A stretch of 64,000 nucleotides of DNA from Neomegalonema sp. (GTDB taxonomy: Bacteria > Pseudomonadota > Alphaproteobacteria > Rhodobacterales > Rhodobacteraceae). Below, piece by piece: positions 163-28,472 of the stretch. The notes beneath the pieces were generated by a model. That model was given only the letters and a program-made list of their open reading frames with translations, was not told the origin of the DNA and did no database searches. Position 1 is the first letter of the stretch, and every line of letters begins with the position of its first letter. The translations under genes and the position numbers were made by a program. The stretch is taken from NCBI GenBank assembly GCA_022760355.1, contig JALEGB010000044.1:1-64000 (forward strand), given 5' to 3'.

Positions 163-1401
163 TTATTGCGCTGCGATTTTGACAAACTTGTTATTGCCGA
201 GCGGGCAGCGGGCCCATAGCTCGCTGAGCGCCTGCACCAGCTTTGCGATATGTTCATCCGTGTGGACCGGCGAGGGGGTGATCCTAATCCGCTCCTCGCC
301 ACGGGGCACGGTCGGGTAGTTGATCGGCTGAACATAGACGCCATAACGCTCAAACAGCGCGTCGGTTACAGCCTTACAATGCACCGGATCGCCGACCATA
401 ACCGGCACGATATGGCTCGGGTTTTCCAGCACTGGCAGATCGGCGGCGATCAGCGCGTCCTTCACGGCGCGGGCGCGGGCTTGGTGCGCCGTCCGCTCCA
501 CCGAGCTTGCCTTCAAATGGCGAACGCTGGCGAGGGCGCCCGCCGCAACCGCCGGAGCTAAGGACGTCGTGAAGATGAAGCCTGGCGCGTAGGATCGGAC
601 CGCGTCACAGCATACTTTGCTGGCGGCGATGTAGCCGCCCATAACGCCGAAGCCCTTCGCCAGCGTGCCGTTGATCACATCAACCCGATCCATCACCCCA
701 TCGCGCTCGGCGATGCCGCCGCCGCGCGCGCCGTACAGCCCGACAGCATGCACTTCGTCGAGATAGGTGATTGCGCCGTATTTTTCCGCCAAGTCGCAGA
801 TCGCGCCGATTGGCGCGATATAGCCGTCCATGGAGTAGACGCTTTCGAACGCGATGATTTTCGGAGTTTCGCGCGGATACTGCGCCAGCTGCGCCTCCAG
901 CGCGTCGATGTCATTGTTCGGCCAGACATGCTTTGGGCCGCGACCGTTGCGGATGCCGGCGATCATTGAGGCGTGGTTCTTCGAGTCCGAAAAGATAACG
1001 GTCTCGGGCCCAAGCAGCTTGACCAGCGTTGAAATCGCGGCTTCGTTGGCGTTGAACGCCGAGGTAAACAGAAGCGCAGCCTCTTTATTATGAAGGTCTG
1101 CTAGTTCTTGCTCAAGCTCAACATGGTAATGGGTGGTGCCGGCAATGTTGCGCGTCCCGCCGGATCCGGCGCCAACACTGTCGATTGCTTCGTGCATCGC
1201 GGCCAAGACTTTTGGATGCTGGCCCATGCCGAGATAGTCGTTGGAGCACCAAACAACAACGTCACTGTTTTCTTCATCACCAAAGTGCTCGGCCGCGGGA
1301 AACGCGCCGCAACGCCGTTTCAAGTCGGCAAACACGCGATACCGGCCTTCACTATGCAGCTCGGAGATGCGTTGTTTTAGAACTTTATCGTAGGCGGTCA
1401 C
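163..1401 (-). CDS. hemA: 5-aminolevulinate synthase
   Basis: A 412-residue pyridoxal-phosphate enzyme that condenses glycine with succinyl-CoA to 5-aminolevulinate, the first committed step of haem and tetrapyrrole synthesis by the C4 (Shemin) route. The alpha-oxoamine synthase fold is clear throughout. Visible landmarks are [10 protein letters not shown] near residue 54, the glycine-rich [13 protein letters not shown], the PLP-contacting [10 protein letters not shown] and [10 protein letters not shown], and the PLP lysine in [13 protein letters not shown]. Length is normal for bacterial ALAS. The gene stands alone with its own terminator at 101-133. Because this route is largely confined to Alphaproteobacteria and mitochondria, the gene is also a taxonomic marker. 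Cytoplasmic. Confidence 0.96.
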
Positions 1402-1865
1402 GATTTGGCTTCCCTATCGATATTATGCAGCCGAAAAAAGCTACTGGAACCGCATATCGCGTTCAAGTGGTCTAGGCAGCGATGAACCGCCGCAAGGGGG
1501 GCGGGCGCGCACACGCGCACATTTAGACAAATGCCACATTGTCGTTACTCTCGCGTTGCCATTCGCCATAGGATCCGACGTGACGCCGCTGCGCGGTCAG
1601 CCGGGACAGGGCGCGCGTTTGGCGCGGAGGCGTCCCCGTCAGGCGGCTGGCGGAGGGAAGGGTGTGGGGCTGGTCCCAATATCCGCTGTCGAATGCGCGC
1701 GCCGCCACGGGCGCGTCCGCGGCAATCCGTCTCTGGCAATAACGTCGCCCTCCTGGCGCGTCTTTGCCAAGAAAAACCGCAAAGCGGTGGCATAACCGAG
1801 AATTATCGTTGATCTCGATGCGTTTGAAACGCCATCGCACGCATCGCATTGCTTGGAGTCTCTAA
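1402..1865. other. Intergenic region, no gene seen
   Basis: 464 bp between the divergent hemA and the secreted-protein gene. Short open frames exist on both strands but have no good ribosome sites and an Arg/Pro-rich shadow composition. The region presumably carries both promoters; I could not identify convincing boxes. Confidence 0.5.
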
Positions 1866-2483
1866 ATGCGCCCCGTTCTATCGCTCATCGGCTTAGTTGC
1901 TCTTGCGACGTTTTTCGGAGGAGGCGGCGCATCCGCGCGGACTTACTCGGGTGAGGCGTTCCTGGCCTCGGTGCAGAAGGGCAAAGTTTGGTGCGTGGAG
2001 TACCGTGCGAGCGACTCGACCTGCGCGTTCATCCTGAAGCGGCCTGTTTTGACCCTCTCCGCAGATGAGCCGGTCGTTGAAGCCGATGGCTATGCTCTGT
2101 TCAAAATGCGCGACGGGTCAGTGATTAAGATCATCCAGCGGTTTCGGTATTTCTCGCGTGGCGGTCGTGTGTGCGTCCATGGGCGGCAGGTGAAAGCCGC
2201 GGACGTCCAGCTTTATCAGCCCGCAACCAATGACGCCTATGAGACGGATGGCGACCGGCGAATTGCGCCCGAGAAGGAACGCGGCATGGTCGGCCTTTTG
2301 ATCGGGCTGTGGGGCGAGCATGAAACCGTTTGTTGGGGCTATCGTTTGGAGGAGCGCGATGGGGCTCTGCCTGGACCTGAAATTGCGATGACGCGTTATG
2401 ACGGCGCTGAAAAACCAAAGGACGCGTCATTTGGCGCCTTTTTCGAAACGAAATTTGGCCATAAGCTGCGTCTGCGCCCATAG
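1866..2483 (+). CDS. Secreted hypothetical protein, 205 aa
   Basis: The function is not recognised. The N-terminus is a typical signal peptide: MRPVLS, then a hydrophobic stretch, then a GASA-R cleavage region near residue 26, so export is likely. The mature part has scattered cysteines (in WCVEY, STCAF, RVCVHG, VCWGY) consistent with disulfides in the periplasm. GGAG in TTGGAGTC lies about 9 nt before the ATG. It is divergent from hemA and no partner gene is adjacent, so the context gives no clue to function. Codon usage resembles its neighbours. It is a real gene judging by the signal peptide and length. Confidence 0.75.
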   Translation: MRPVLSLIGLVALATFFGGGGASARTYSGEAFLASVQKGKVWCVEYRASDSTCAFILKRPVLTLSADEPVVEADGYALFKMRDGSVIKIIQRFRYFSRGGRVCVHGRQVKAADVQLYQPATNDAYETDGDRRIAPEKERGMVGLLIGLWGEHETVCWGYRLEERDGALPGPEIAMTRYDGAEKPKDASFGAFFETKFGHKLRLRP

Positions 2484-2988
2484 AGGAAACAATCTTTCAG
2501 CGTCATTTCTGGGCCCCTTTGCGGCGTTGCTGCTTGGGAATAATTCCCCAGAATGTTCGCATTTCGTCTCGACGCTTCAGAACAAATAAGGTACATGCAT
2601 GAGCGCTTCGCTGCCAGTGCGCTATGGGCGCCCGTTGCCGGCCTTGGTCTAATAAATCTAGTGCGGATTATATGGAAGATTCTTGCAAGCGCGCTCTATG
2701 TGTGGTGGAGTTGTCCCGCGATTTGAGCGAGGGATGTCCATATGTGGTGTCGCGGCGTCAGGATTGGCGGAATAGAGATTGTAATCAGCCGGTACGCGGA
2801 GGGATGCGCTGGCTGGCGACCTGTAGTGGAGAGCGGGGCGCTGCCGGAACTATATCTGTACTGGCGGCGATACGAGGTCGTTCTGTCGGCTTGGCGGCGA
2901 TGCGAGCGCGCGCTTGCGGCCCGCGCCGGGCTTGCGCAGCCCGAAGTCGCCGATATCGCGTCCAACTCGCGTCCGCAGGAGGCTCCAA
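2484..2988. other. Intergenic region with an uncertain open frame
   Basis: About 500 bp without a supported gene. A plus-strand frame from about 2742 reads fairly protein-like up to about 2960 but then runs out of frame into the MarR gene without a stop until 3257. It may be chance or a decayed gene. The final bases hold the good ribosome site AGGAGG (2977-2982) of the following gene. Confidence 0.4.
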
Positions 2989-3444
2989 ATGAACCATCTG
3001 ACTGCGAAAGAGAGGCGTGCGATTCGGCGGCTGTTGGCGGCGATACAAGAATACCGCAAGCTCGACCCGGATATGCAATTGCCTATGGCCGCGAGCCTAT
3101 TGATCGTCGCCTTGAAGGACGGGGTAAGCCGGACGGAGGTGATGGAGGATCTCAACGTGGCCGGCTCGACGGCGACGCGAAACCTCATGGGGCTCATGGC
3201 CGAAGGAAGGCTCGGGCGGCCAGGGCACGGGCTCGTGTCTCAGCGGGTCAATCCTGACGAGCGCCGCTGGCGCATGCATTCGCTGACGCCGGAGGGGCTC
3301 GAGGTCGTCCGGCGGCTTGCGGAGATCATTGAGCCGTCGGAAAGCGGGCGCCCGAAACCGTCGGACCGACGCGCGGTTGGGGCGGAGGATGGGGATCAGC
3401 CGCGCAAGATTGCAAAGCGGAAGGCGCCGCCTGGGGCGGAGTAA
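2989..3444 (+). CDS. MarR-like winged-helix transcriptional regulator
   Basis: A 151-residue protein with a MarR-type layout. It has an N-terminal helix, a winged helix with SRTEVMEDLNVAGSTATRNL as the recognition-helix region (about residues 48-67), and a wing ending in NPDERRWRMHSLTPEGLEVV, which matches the DRR.....LT..G signature of the family. The C-terminal 35 residues are charged and probably disordered. The start was chosen at 2989 because AGGAGG lies 6 nt upstream; the longer in-frame extension to 2914 has no such site. The ligand and target are unknown. A LysR-type regulator follows on the same strand, so the pair could control each other. Confidence 0.72.
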   Translation: MNHLTAKERRAIRRLLAAIQEYRKLDPDMQLPMAASLLIVALKDGVSRTEVMEDLNVAGSTATRNLMGLMAEGRLGRPGHGLVSQRVNPDERRWRMHSLTPEGLEVVRRLAEIIEPSESGRPKPSDRRAVGAEDGDQPRKIAKRKAPPGAE

Positions 3445-3584
3445 TTTCCGGGCGCGCGCCTGAGCGTAGAGGGCGTGGCGCGAACGCCGGTGGCCGGTGT
3501 TCAGAAAAAGTGATGCTATTGATCGCTGCATGATCGTAAGCTCTGAACATGAATGCTGCGAGGCGTGGGCCACAGGGGGCGGAA

Positions 3585-4511
3585 ATGTTCGGAGTGAGGG
3601 ACGCGGAGATCGTATCGCTTGTCGCGACGAGCGGTGGTTTTCGTGCGGCCGCAGTACGGCTAGGCCTCGCCCCGTCCGCGGTGTCCGCACGGATTGCGCA
3701 GGTGGAGCGCTCCCTTGGCGTGCAGCTTTTTGACCGCTCTCGGCAGGGGGCTCGATTAACGCCGGAGGGGCGCCGTTTTGTCGAGCAGTCGTCGCGCCTG
3801 ATCACGATGCGCGACGCCATTGCCGCCGAGGTCGCGTCTTTCTCCGGCCTGAGCGGGACGCTGCGGATCGGGGTCGCGGAAATTGTTGCCGACACATGGG
3901 TGGCGCAGCTTCTTCAACATCTCGTCGAACATGCGCCTCGCGTGCGGTTAGAGCTTACGGTCGAGAGCTCTGAAATGCTCGGACGCAGGCTGGCCGAACA
4001 TGCGCTCGATATTGCGGTGTTGCTGCGTCAATGGGCCCCTCGCGAGGCGGTCGCAACCGAGATTGCGGCTTTAAACATCGGTTGGTACGCGGCTCCTGAG
4101 TTGGTTCGGGGAATATCTGGATTTGCCGCATCGGGCGCTGCTGAGCTTGACGTTGAGGATGTCTCGGATCGCGCGATTATCACCTTTTCCAAGCAGACCC
4201 CGCCTGCGCGTGAGGTTGCTCAGATCTTCGCCAATTCGCGCCTGCCTCAGCCGATCATTCATGGCTCAAACACAGTCGCGACCATCATGCGTCTTGCGTG
4301 CGATGGTTTTGGCGTCGCCACACTGCCAGAGCCGATGGCCGAGCCCAGCTGCAAAGCGGGTCGGTTGACGCGGATTGATTTTGGTTCAGCCGCACGATTG
4401 TCCCCGCTTGCGTTCGATATGTGCCATCTTTCCCCGTCAATCACCCCATTCGCGGAGATCTTGCGCGCTGGGGCCCGCCAATTGCGCTCTGAACCGTCGA
4501 CCCTCGGTTGA
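3585..4511 (+). CDS. LysR-type transcriptional regulator
   Basis: A DNA-binding regulator of about 308 residues. The N-terminal helix-turn-helix is clear (AEIVSLVATSGGFRAAAVRL, then LAPSAVSARIAQVERSLGVQLFDRS), followed by a linker helix and a two-lobed effector domain (IGVAEIVADTWVAQLLQHL onwards). I prefer the start at 3585, where GGGGGCGGAA precedes ATG. An alternative ATG at 3549 would add 12 residues. Upstream, TGTTCAG at 3498-3504 is inverted as CTGAACA at 3543-3549, a possible autoregulatory site. No divergent target gene is present, which is unusual for LysR proteins. Trigger factor follows after 267 bp and is unlikely to be its target. Effector unknown. Confidence 0.85.
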   Translation: MFGVRDAEIVSLVATSGGFRAAAVRLGLAPSAVSARIAQVERSLGVQLFDRSRQGARLTPEGRRFVEQSSRLITMRDAIAAEVASFSGLSGTLRIGVAEIVADTWVAQLLQHLVEHAPRVRLELTVESSEMLGRRLAEHALDIAVLLRQWAPREAVATEIAALNIGWYAAPELVRGISGFAASGAAELDVEDVSDRAIITFSKQTPPAREVAQIFANSRLPQPIIHGSNTVATIMRLACDGFGVATLPEPMAEPSCKAGRLTRIDFGSAARLSPLAFDMCHLSPSITPFAEILRAGARQLRSEPSTLG

Positions 4512-4778
4512 CAAGGCGCCTGCAATCTGCGAGTCCGCCAATTGGAGCGGCCTCCCTATCGATTAGTCGACTGTTCTAGAAAAAGAGTTTTTTCCAGCTG
4601 TTTCGCGGCAACCGCATCCCGCGTTACTGCGAGAAACATGCGAAAAAACGAAAACTCTAGCGCTATTAAGGCATTCGATGCGAGGGCGGCGCAGTCGCGC
4701 CGTTCGGGCGGGGCGCAAGGTTTTTAGCCGGGAGCGCGGTTTAGCGGGCGCTTTCCCCCCAAGAAAAGTTTTGAGGCG

Positions 4779-25709: not shown

Positions 25710-25915
25710 AGCCGCGCCTTTCTCCTCGCCCCTCTGATCGAAAACTCCCATATCTCAGTCGGTTAGTCGTGTTCTTTTTGAGGGGCGACGCCACAAAGAC
25801 TCGATGCGTCGCAGTTGAATAAATTTCGCTTCTTGACATCAAGCAAGACTAGACCTGCGCCTATTTGGGCGGCTACTAAGGGTCTTCTACTAACTGGAGG
25901 AGGATGACATAGATC

Positions 25916-26845
25916 GTGAGTAGGATCGTTTCCTTCATCAATATGAAGGGTGGTGTCGGTAAGACAACCTCCTCAGTCACTTTGGCTGAAACCTGCGCAG
26001 CCGAGTTTGGCTGGCGCGTGCTGCTTTTGGATCTCGATGCGCAGGCGAGCGCATCCTACGCCCTCTGCGGTTCGGACCGGTACGAGGATGCGGTGCGTCG
26101 AGAGCGGACATTGGCGGCGTATTTCGACCGCATTGCGGATGGGCGGCGACCGGAGCCTCTGTCGGAGTATCGCACGCCGGCGGTCGCGGGCGAAGGCGCG
26201 GATCCGATGATTGACGTCATTTGCGCTGAGCCCTCGCTGCGATATGCGGAGCGGGCGCTGATCGAGCATTATCACACGCTGCGTGTTCGCCGCGGCGCGG
26301 TGTCTAAGTCAGGACCGGAGGGGCAGACGCGGCGAATTTTGCGCGAAAGCCTGGATCGCGTCCGCAAAAGTTACGATCTCATTGTCATCGACTGTCCGCC
26401 AGGCATCTCGATTTTCGCCGAAGCAGGCGTCAGCTGCTCAGATTTGATCGTGATGCCGACCATTCCGGACTATCTTTCGACCTTGGGCCTGAAAGAACTC
26501 AACCGCCGTTTCCTGCGGCAGCTGCGGCGGGACGGAAATCTGTTAGGCCGCACAGCAATATTGCCCACCAAAGTGCGGGCGAACGACAAGACGCATAACC
26601 GTTTCTTAACCGAACTTGACACATTGGTGCGAGACGGAGTGATCGAGGCGTCCTTTTTAACGACAATGATTGCGCAGGACGCCAGTATTGCGCGCGCGCT
26701 GGAGCCGGAGCATTTAGGGCTGGCGTTTCAAAAGAAGTACGCCAAAGCCCGCGCCGATTTGGTTGAGTTTGCGCGCGAGGTGCGGTCGTTGTTGGAAGAG
26801 ACGACAAATGTCGAAGGCGAACGGCGGCGCTCGGACGCCGCGTGA
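25916..26845 (+). CDS. ParA/MinD-type ATPase, orphan
   Basis: A 309-residue cytoplasmic P-loop ATPase of the ParA family. It has a deviant Walker A KGGVGKTT (residues 11-18), switch I region LLLDLDAQASAS (37-46) and Walker B DLIVIDCPPG (154-163). It is longer than chromosomal ParA because of an insert at about 60-140. It begins with GTG, 12 nt after GGAGGAGG; a two-codon frame ATG-ACA-TAG (25904-25912) lies between ribosome site and start. The next gene overlaps it by 38 nt. No parB is present, so I infer spatial positioning or regulation of an unknown cargo rather than chromosome partition. The chromosomal parAB is expected elsewhere. Confidence 0.85.
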   Translation: MSRIVSFINMKGGVGKTTSSVTLAETCAAEFGWRVLLLDLDAQASASYALCGSDRYEDAVRRERTLAAYFDRIADGRRPEPLSEYRTPAVAGEGADPMIDVICAEPSLRYAERALIEHYHTLRVRRGAVSKSGPEGQTRRILRESLDRVRKSYDLIVIDCPPGISIFAEAGVSCSDLIVMPTIPDYLSTLGLKELNRRFLRQLRRDGNLLGRTAILPTKVRANDKTHNRFLTELDTLVRDGVIEASFLTTMIAQDASIARALEPEHLGLAFQKKYAKARADLVEFAREVRSLLEETTNVEGERRRSDAA

Positions 26846-27176
26846 TTTTTTTGAACCGCTTTTCGAGGTGGTTCTTGAGGAAATGGACCGCAACCCGGAG
26901 TTCGCAGCCCGGGTCGCTGAGCGCATTGGCGGCGCGGTGACGCTTAAACTTGAGGGCGTCCGCCGCAAGCCGGCGGCCGTGCCGTCCGCGCTTGCTGAGC
27001 TGGATCTGCAGGCGGAAATGGCCGAGCATGGTCAAATCCGCTTGCGAGAGAAGCTGGGGCGCTTCAAAAATGCGGAGCTCGGCGCATTGGTCCGGGCGCG
27101 AAAATGGTCGGATGCGCCCGTTTCCAAAATGAACAAAGGCCAGCTGCTGAACGCGATTGTTCGCGCGGTAAAGTAG
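26808..27176 (+). CDS. Small basic protein coupled to the ParA-type ATPase
   Basis: The family is not recognised. A 122-residue soluble protein, strongly helical and basic. Its first 38 nt overlap the end of the ATPase gene in another frame, and GGAAG precedes its ATG, a layout that implies coupled translation and a functional pair. Residues about 88-122 (KNAELGALVRARKWSDAPVSKMNKGQLLNAIVRAVK is the region) resemble the helix-extended-helix of SAP or Rho-N domains, which bind nucleic acid; this is inference by eye. It could play the part of a ParB-like partner or cargo adaptor for the ATPase. Confidence 0.68.
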   Translation: MSKANGGARTPRDFFEPLFEVVLEEMDRNPEFAARVAERIGGAVTLKLEGVRRKPAAVPSALAELDLQAEMAEHGQIRLREKLGRFKNAELGALVRARKWSDAPVSKMNKGQLLNAIVRAVK

Positions 27177-27539
27177 CTGTAGCGTCGCGGCGCTGGCGGT
27201 CTCGCATCGGCCAACATGTTCGCACTCGCACAGGGCGATCTTGCCTGTCGGGACGCAGCCTTGGGGCGAGTCCTGGTGACGGGACGGTCGCGGCGATTCG
27301 GCCGTCATTTGCCTCGCGGTTCGCTATTGAAATCGATGTTAGTTGAGAAAATGAGCGCACCCACTGGGCGGAATGATGCAAATTTGGTCATTTGTGCATT
27401 TTAAACGTTAATGTGTTCGCCAATCGGGCGCCTTCTGCGCAGAAAGGCTTGATAAATAGAATTTAAGTGATGCAGTGTGCAGTGCAGCGGGGTGGGGGCT
27501 CGCATTTTTGAAGGCTGATTTGGTTTGGGGGGAGGCGGC
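27177..27539. other. Intergenic region before the 310-aa gene
   Basis: 363 bp with lower GC near 27350-27480. It includes AT-rich tracts suited to a promoter and the near-repeat GCAGTGTGCAGTGCAG around 27474. No gene or terminator was recognised. The ribosome site GGGGGGAGG sits just before the next ATG. Confidence 0.4.
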
Positions 27540-28472
27540 ATGACCTCGATACCGCTCCTTCTGGCGCAGTTGGATGCGTTGCAGGAGGATCTTTCCGAAG
27601 TAAAGCCATTTGAAATGGTGGCTTTGACGGAGTTTGGCATTGTCTCAGGTTATGCCCCGACTTACGCGGGCCTGCGGGTTGATGCGATCGAGACGCTGGG
27701 TATTTGCGTAAGGTATTTCCCGGAGCTGCCGATAGACATCGCTTCTGTCGCCGAGATCACGCCGCAACAGCACGTGAATGAAGGGCGGCTTACAGCGGAA
27801 CTCCAACGTCTGATTGATATCGTGCGTCAAACCCACGCCGCGCTGACGGAGCTTACGCCGATTGCGGCTCAACGTTTGGCGGCGGTTGATGCGAATGACC
27901 GTCGGCGCTTTGCCGAGCTGCTGTCGCGCAGCGGTATCAAGGTCGCGCCGCGTAAAGGGGGGGGCGCGTCTGGCGGCGACAATGGCGAAAGTCTGCTCAA
28001 GCTTGCGCGCGATCAGCTTTCCGCGCCCTCCGAAGACGAAGAGCCCGCCCGCTTCAACACCCAGAAAATTTTCATTTCCAGCCGGTTCTCATTCCGATTG
28101 GGCCACCAGATCGCCGATGTGCTTTCCGACGCGGGCTATGATCCCGTGCTTCCGCGCAGCAACGATGCGACGACCGTGATGGACAAATGCTCCGGCGGCG
28201 TTTTCAGCCTGATGTCGGATGGCGCATCGCCGGTGGAGAGCGCGCCGCCCGTGCGCCCGATCGTGTTCGAAGTCGCGTCGGCGCCGGATCGCCTGCGGCA
28301 GAAGATGTTGCTGGTTGGCCGCGAAGCGACGGTTCATAAGATGCCGCCGCCGCTGAGCGAGATGCCGTTCTTTGGGTTGAAGAACGAAGTTATGGATGAA
28401 ACCGAGATGGCGCGGTTCGCCGCCGTGACATCGCTGCCTTCCTGGCGCTCGCACAACAAGAGTTTGAACTAA
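27540..28472 (+). CDS. Hypothetical protein, possible C-terminal TIR-like/nucleotide-binding domain
   Basis: A 310-residue soluble protein not recognised as a whole. The start at ATG 27540 follows a strong GGAGG; a TTG five codons upstream is less likely. Residues 1-130 are helical with coiled-coil character. Residues 131-172 are a Gly- and acid-rich linker. Residues 174-300 alternate strand and helix: QKIFISS, ADVLSDAGYDPVLPR, VMDKCSGGVFSLMSDG, RPIVFEVASAPDRLRQKMLLVGRE, MPFF. This order resembles the predicted nucleotide-binding TIR-like proteins (K-V-F-I..., L..LGYEP, RPNVIFELG, RV.LL), but key residues are only partly matched. It lies downstream of the ParA-type pair, possibly under its own promoter. 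Confidence 0.6.
   Translation: MTSIPLLLAQLDALQEDLSEVKPFEMVALTEFGIVSGYAPTYAGLRVDAIETLGICVRYFPELPIDIASVAEITPQQHVNEGRLTAELQRLIDIVRQTHAALTELTPIAAQRLAAVDANDRRRFAELLSRSGIKVAPRKGGGASGGDNGESLLKLARDQLSAPSEDEEPARFNTQKIFISSRFSFRLGHQIADVLSDAGYDPVLPRSNDATTVMDKCSGGVFSLMSDGASPVESAPPVRPIVFEVASAPDRLRQKMLLVGREATVHKMPPPLSEMPFFGLKNEVMDETEMARFAAVTSLPSWRSHNKSLN

Follow-up and report, generated by a model that had tools for sequence, protein, structure and literature searches.

A gene for a ParA-type ATPase and the gene for a small basic protein directly downstream of it form a conserved unit in distant proteobacteria, in which the two are adjacent and usually overlap. The pair lies in a window of 64,000 nucleotides of Neomegalonema sp. 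DNA (the whole stretch that was analyzed) and was found at 12 distinct loci in all, a total in which two Methylocystis plasmids are counted as one. These loci are on alphaproteobacterial and betaproteobacterial chromosomes, megaplasmids, conjugative Methylocystis plasmids, and islands, and one of them is a further copy in the genome of the window. The ParA-partner arrangement is known; the partner family is undescribed in the libraries and literature searched. No description of the pair was found there either, including under SAP-domain ParA partners and orphan ParA proteins with a small partner, which agrees with the view in the preliminary description that no described system has this make-up. 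We hold with moderate confidence that the two genes are a self-contained ParA-partner module with a DNA cargo, carried on accessory DNA, and that the gene that follows them is a bystander. More tentatively, it is possible that the pair represents an undescribed ParA class, one that mobile DNA has spread among proteobacteria and that works without a classical parS array. In such a system a small SAP-like protein would take the place of ParB as the partner that binds DNA and stimulates the ATPase.

ParA-type ATPases position other components within bacterial cells. Many of them are termed orphans, with partners that are unknown and too diverse to recognize (PMC10241942). One orphan ParA group now gains a defined partner family that has a conserved motif and an end predicted to bind DNA; relatives add a palindromic promoter site. 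An orphan ParA thus becomes a testable two-protein system, which would add a type of partner beyond ParB and the ribbon-helix-helix proteins.

The three open reading frames of the locus were confirmed as previously placed, with the same coordinates, the 38-nt overlap, and the linker in the 310-aa protein. The features, all on the plus strand, are the following:

25896..25903, plus strand: GGAGGAGG, a ribosome-binding-site-like sequence 5' of the parA GTG start, read from the sequence
25916..26845, plus strand: ParA-type deviant Walker A ATPase (P0001), 309 aa, GTG start, no N-terminal helix-turn-helix (HTH), no partner ParB
25946..25969, plus strand: deviant Walker A motif KGGVGKTT with signature Lys11 and with Lys16, invariant across the ParA homologues aligned
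26808..27176, plus strand: small basic partner (P0002), 122 aa, ATG start, pI 10.1, overlapping parA by 38 nt
26892..26906, plus strand: NPEFA (family motif NPxF), at the predicted turn of the partner N-terminal helical hairpin, with Asn29 and Pro30 invariant in an 8-member alignment
26973..27173, plus strand: partner C-terminal helical domain, residues 56-122, SAP-like predicted fold
27540..28472, plus strand: 310-aa protein (P0003), ATG start, a separate dispersed family outside the module

The deviant Walker A motif with its signature lysine and the ParA-family profile matches place the window ATPase in the ParA/MinD deviant Walker A family. All of its motifs are intact (KGGVGKTT, DLDAQ, and DCPP), and it matched Pfam AAA_31 (E 1.5e-28) and CbiA (E 5.8e-15) as well as the ParA-like partition protein phrog_164 of PHROGs (E 7.6e-42). 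Its scores were below the cut-offs of two curated models for plasmid-partition ParA/RepA equivalogs, NF041546 (76.5 versus 180 bits) and TIGR03453 (70.8 versus 348 bits). The exact start of parA is uncertain because an in-frame ATG-ACA-TAG (25904-25912) precedes the GTG by 12 nt, between it and the ribosome-binding-like site; translation may stop early there and then reinitiate. The ATPase domain is nonetheless complete. The C-terminus of the protein (NVEGERRRSDAA) has no MinD-like amphipathic membrane-targeting tail, which makes a nucleoid-type ParA more likely than a membrane-targeted one. A promoter scan at the window pair gave no sigma-70-type match. PADLOC matches of ParA proteins to PDC-M28B and MTase_I fall in generic Walker A or HTH regions and were dropped as evidence of defense.

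The small partner had no match in Pfam, NCBIfam, or PHROGs, and only a marginal HORMA match in PADLOC. An AlphaFold2 model built from a six-sequence alignment (mean pLDDT 80) is all-helical, without strand. In this model NPEFA lies at the turn of a hairpin made of helices 11-28 and 30-40, and a linker leads to a C-terminal domain that begins at about residue 56. The partner end had been described as SAP- or Rho-N-like. Structural realignment of residues 56-122 with the T4 endonuclease VII C-terminus, DEK, and Ku70 SAP gave Z values of 4.5-5.4 over 50-60 residues, although rows for RFC subunits show that middling helical matches also arise in the structural comparison of this protein. Several of the named viral structural matches were SAP, Rho-N, or HeH/LEM proteins. 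These comparisons support, but do not prove, a SAP-like C-terminal domain for which DNA binding is predicted. The predicted arrangement of the last 65 residues is like that of SAP, Rho-N, and HeH/LEM domains; unlike those domains, the partner has no significant sequence match. SAP was absent from its Pfam matches up to E 10 and E 5, Foldseek with the model returned no significant E value, and a sequence search of solved structures with the partner profile gave chance matches only. No SAP-type domain serving as a ParA adaptor was reported in the literature searched.

The partner is rare. In a same-family sample of 295 genomes, each from a genus, it was found in only two besides the window genome (G008 and G217; 3/295). 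Both of these partners are 46-50% identical to that of the window, and each directly follows a ParA with 64-67% identity to that of the window. The existence of such syntenic homologues in two other genera indicates that P0001 and P0002 are not chance open reading frames. The overlapping pair is kept in loci L004/L015 and L005/L014. Among the sub-threshold matches to a profile of three partners, only two (L016 and L034) were directly downstream of a ParA; most of the others had no ParA in the stretch fetched and were taken as chance. The L016 pair (G565) belongs to another alphaproteobacterial family. Searches starting from it located pairs on two conjugative Methylocystis plasmids, the R. leguminosarum megaplasmid pRL1, and Caballeronia pNK81; further pairs were found in G887 and on three IMG/VR contigs. 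There was no match in tblastn searches of plasmids with P0002 and P0006 or of phages with P0004, and scans of viral contigs, a first one with A1 and one with the G887 partner, found nothing. A DNA similarity between contig C81 and the window was set aside as chance, with an unrelated large open reading frame.

The partner gene is directly 3' of parA in 12/12 loci, with a spacing of -56 to +127 nt overall and of -56 to +1 nt in 11/12. The 38-nt overlap of the window is accompanied by overlaps of 4-56 nt at seven more loci, a 1-nt gap at three, and a 127-nt gap at one. As far as computation goes, this conserved partnership at 12 loci bears out the proposal that the small basic protein is the adaptor of the ParA. 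Comparison of the partner subgroups with hhalign united them (E 1.2e-8, 1.3e-7, 4.1e-9, and 7.1e-12), and by these profile alignments the partners of all subgroups are one homologous family missing from the libraries searched. The ParA tree, in which support is weak outside the closest group, and the partner tree contain the same three subgroups: a window-like group, a group of the C119 and G887 pairs, and a group of HTH-bearing ParA proteins that includes Caballeronia. Such agreement is expected if both genes were inherited together. When open reading frames within 6.5 kb of the 12 loci were compared all against all, no common family was found beyond the pair itself, with few exceptions: two upstream genes common to the two close relatives, one of them glutathione-S-transferase-like; a few weak matches; and a GGDEF/EAL-type match of Caballeronia to the window that is incidental.

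The Methylocystis plasmids with the pair are conjugative and carry a type IV secretion system and a relaxase. Some of the contigs that carry the pair are integrase-flanked, and at several chromosomal loci of the pair no mobile element is visible. The Methylocystis plasmids also carry repAB of their own (repABC). Therefore, they do not need the pair for partition, and the pair was ruled out as their sole partition system.

The preliminary description also noted that the ATPase lacks parB, and this point stood. No ParB (PF02195) was found near the pair, and the genome has a single PF02195 match, which adjoins the chromosomal gidB-parA locus on contig C121. Around the window pair there was no iteron or centromere-like array, and direct and inverted repeats were limited to weak two-copy matches. 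The relatives likewise have no ParB nearby. Some of them carry, beside parA, an inverted repeat that resembles an operator or parS, and a partition-like role is therefore likelier than the preliminary description allowed. This 41-bp inverted repeat, CTGTGAACGNNGTAAACA-N5-TGTTTACNNCGTTCACAG and variants, precedes parA at 6/6 loci with an HTH-bearing ParA:

L057, 1335-1375: 41-bp inverted repeat
L041, 4899-4939: 41-bp inverted repeat
L058, 4898-4938: 41-bp inverted repeat
L016, 2853-2893, minus strand: 41-bp inverted repeat
L059, 1644-1684: 41-bp inverted repeat
L038, 7904-7945: 41-bp inverted repeat

The repeat is roughly 10-50 nt upstream of parA; at several loci it is just downstream of a TTGAC box, and at several it overlaps the likely promoter region. 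Its sites scored 24-32 of 32, versus at most 21 elsewhere in the scanned sequences or in shuffles, a background maximum that excludes overlapping re-registrations of the same sites. It occurred once across three loci covering the 80-kb Methylocystis plasmid. ParA proteins of the window subgroup have no HTH, and the loci of this subgroup lack the 41-bp site. On the simplest reading, by analogy with type Ia systems, the repeat is probably an operator for the ParA HTH. Alternatively, it may be a single-site centromere.

Type I plasmid partition systems (ParA/ParB-parS and ParF/ParG) resemble the pair in having an ATPase and an adjacent small partner in one operon, in plasmid carriage, and, for the HTH-bearing relatives, in a palindromic site at the promoter. 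However, the pair has no ParB or CTPase domain, its partner is neither a ParB nor a predicted ribbon-helix-helix protein, there is no centromere array by the window copy, and the carrier plasmids have their own RepAB.

In ParA/MinD systems ATP-bound ParA resides on the nucleoid and is released by its partner (PMC9178275, PMC10241942), and it is by analogy with these systems that we propose nucleoid binding and partner release for the window pair. ATP-bound ParA dimers would coat the nucleoid, and the N-terminal hairpin of the partner, with its NPxF motif, would touch ParA and trigger ATP hydrolysis. The SAP-like C-terminal domain, the proposed DNA grip, would hold the cargo, which for that reason is most likely DNA. 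The partner would thus perform the job of ParB or another centromere-binding protein without being one. In the HTH-bearing relatives, the repeat over the parA promoter might be bound by the HTH, giving autoregulation, or by the partner, as a single-site centromere. The likely benefit would be that accessory DNA with the pair is stably inherited or positioned, and the mobile, sporadic distribution of the pair suits a module that helps accessory DNA to persist or be positioned. The repABC genes on the Methylocystis plasmid and the lack of centromere-like repeats at the window copy argue against a simple partition role. Further points against the proposed module are the modest SAP match (Z about 5, a nonsignificant Foldseek E value, and no Pfam SAP match), the single occurrence of the 41-bp repeat on the 80-kb plasmid, the chromosomal loci without a visible mobile element, and the ParA tree, in which support is weak outside the closest group and a ParA with a different partner (L037) falls among the pair ParA proteins.

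Among arrangements studied by experiment, ParA-Shi of ICEclc comes closest: there, ParA and Shi, a small protein whose gene overlaps parA, arrest growth (PMC6812849). As in the pair described here, a small gene follows parA and overlaps it, by 17 bp in the case of shi, the genes are carried on mobile DNA, and the small protein is distinct from ParB; Shi acts only with ParA (PMC6812849). By analogy, the pair could function like ParA-Shi in growth arrest despite the different kind of small protein, delaying chromosome segregation or division during transfer of mobile DNA, a role consistent with its presence on conjugative plasmids and integrase-flanked contigs. We regard such growth or division modulation as rather unlikely. 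Shi is HicA-like and about 86 aa long, with parB downstream and alpA upstream, whereas the partners are 117-158 aa across the 12 loci, predicted to be all-helical, and SAP-like at their end, and HicA was absent from the Pfam matches of the partner family. Neither an upstream alpA nor a downstream parB was present in the pair neighborhoods examined, and several copies are on plain chromosomes. Orphan chromosomal ParA proteins with diverse adaptors often position protein cargos (PMC10241942, PMC9178275), and PpfA-TlpT, McdA-McdB, and ParC-ParP share with the pair a ParB-less ParA and a dedicated small adaptor. The isolation of some chromosomal copies would fit an adaptor to an unlinked protein assembly. 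Unlike the pair, however, such systems usually adjoin the genes for their cargo, and no neighbor is common to the 12 loci; sporadic presence in the family and plasmid carriage fit poorly with a core cell structure, and the partner end looks DNA-binding. Positioning of a protein cargo is therefore unlikely.

A chromosomal ParA can also act against plasmids: ParI of Pseudomonas putida, an orphan ParA on a genomic island, destabilizes IncP-7 plasmids (PMC9178275). A pair of this kind, in which the small protein helps the ATPase, would poison the partition of plasmids that enter the cell, and relatives adjoin an apparent type III restriction-modification operon and a PLD/helicase-like gene. Interference is decidedly unlikely given that the pair is also found on plasmids beside their own repABC and that PADLOC matches are weak, falling in generic ATPase or HTH regions of the ParA proteins or, for the partner, on the marginal HORMA match. 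The proposal that the 310-aa protein is an effector or cargo in a three-gene system was favored by the adjacency and common orientation of the genes in the window. It did not survive comparison with the other loci and is now extremely improbable, because genes 1 and 2 stay linked in other genomes but gene 3 does not. The third gene is separated from the partner gene by 363 nt and is missing beside all 11 other pairs.

Thus, in keeping with the two-gene module that we favor, the 310-aa gene is, on comparative sequence evidence, a bystander of the pair. Its product, which has a Gly/Ser/Lys-rich linker near residues 139-150, had no match in Pfam, NCBIfam, PHROGs, or PADLOC, and an AlphaFold2 model of it alone (pLDDT 34) was set aside. 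The open reading frame is not due to chance because the genome of the window holds two paralogues of it, on C40 and on C125, and G008 holds one homologue; in the stretches read, no ParA adjoins any of these three. No homologue turned up in the remaining genomes sampled from the taxonomic family and order, and a viral-contig scan with a P0003 homologue found nothing. One paralogue (L008) matched TIR_2 at E 0.0013, below the gathering score (19.6 versus 28 bits); P0003 itself had no match to it. The members of this rare, dispersed family (window 27540-28472; L008 1465-2310; L010 1141-1926; L007 1120-1995), three of them in the window's genome, have a conserved helical N-terminal half and a weakly TIR-like C-terminal half, which is degenerate in the L010 copy.

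Several individual loci have features of their own. The second pair in the window's genome (L034 1336-2833; G000:C119:5330-6827) is divergent, with a 157-aa partner and the 127-nt gap. The two Methylocystis plasmids (L038 and L039; NZ_AP027146.1 and NZ_AP027145.1) are from one strain of Methylocystis iwaonis and have a common 18.4-kb region with the same gene content, in which multiubiquitin/E2/ThiF-type genes and a Fic protein are near the pair. At L058 the apparent type III restriction-modification operon occupies 186-4737, with the pair directly downstream. In the pair ParA at L045 587-1480, an arginine replaces the Walker A signature lysine (RRGGVGKTT). An orphan ParA at L037 474-2070 (G008:C324; MTGGVGKTT) falls among the pair ParA proteins in the tree and is followed by a different overlapping gene, the product of which is 239 aa long, has no Pfam match, and seems to hold an internal repeat.
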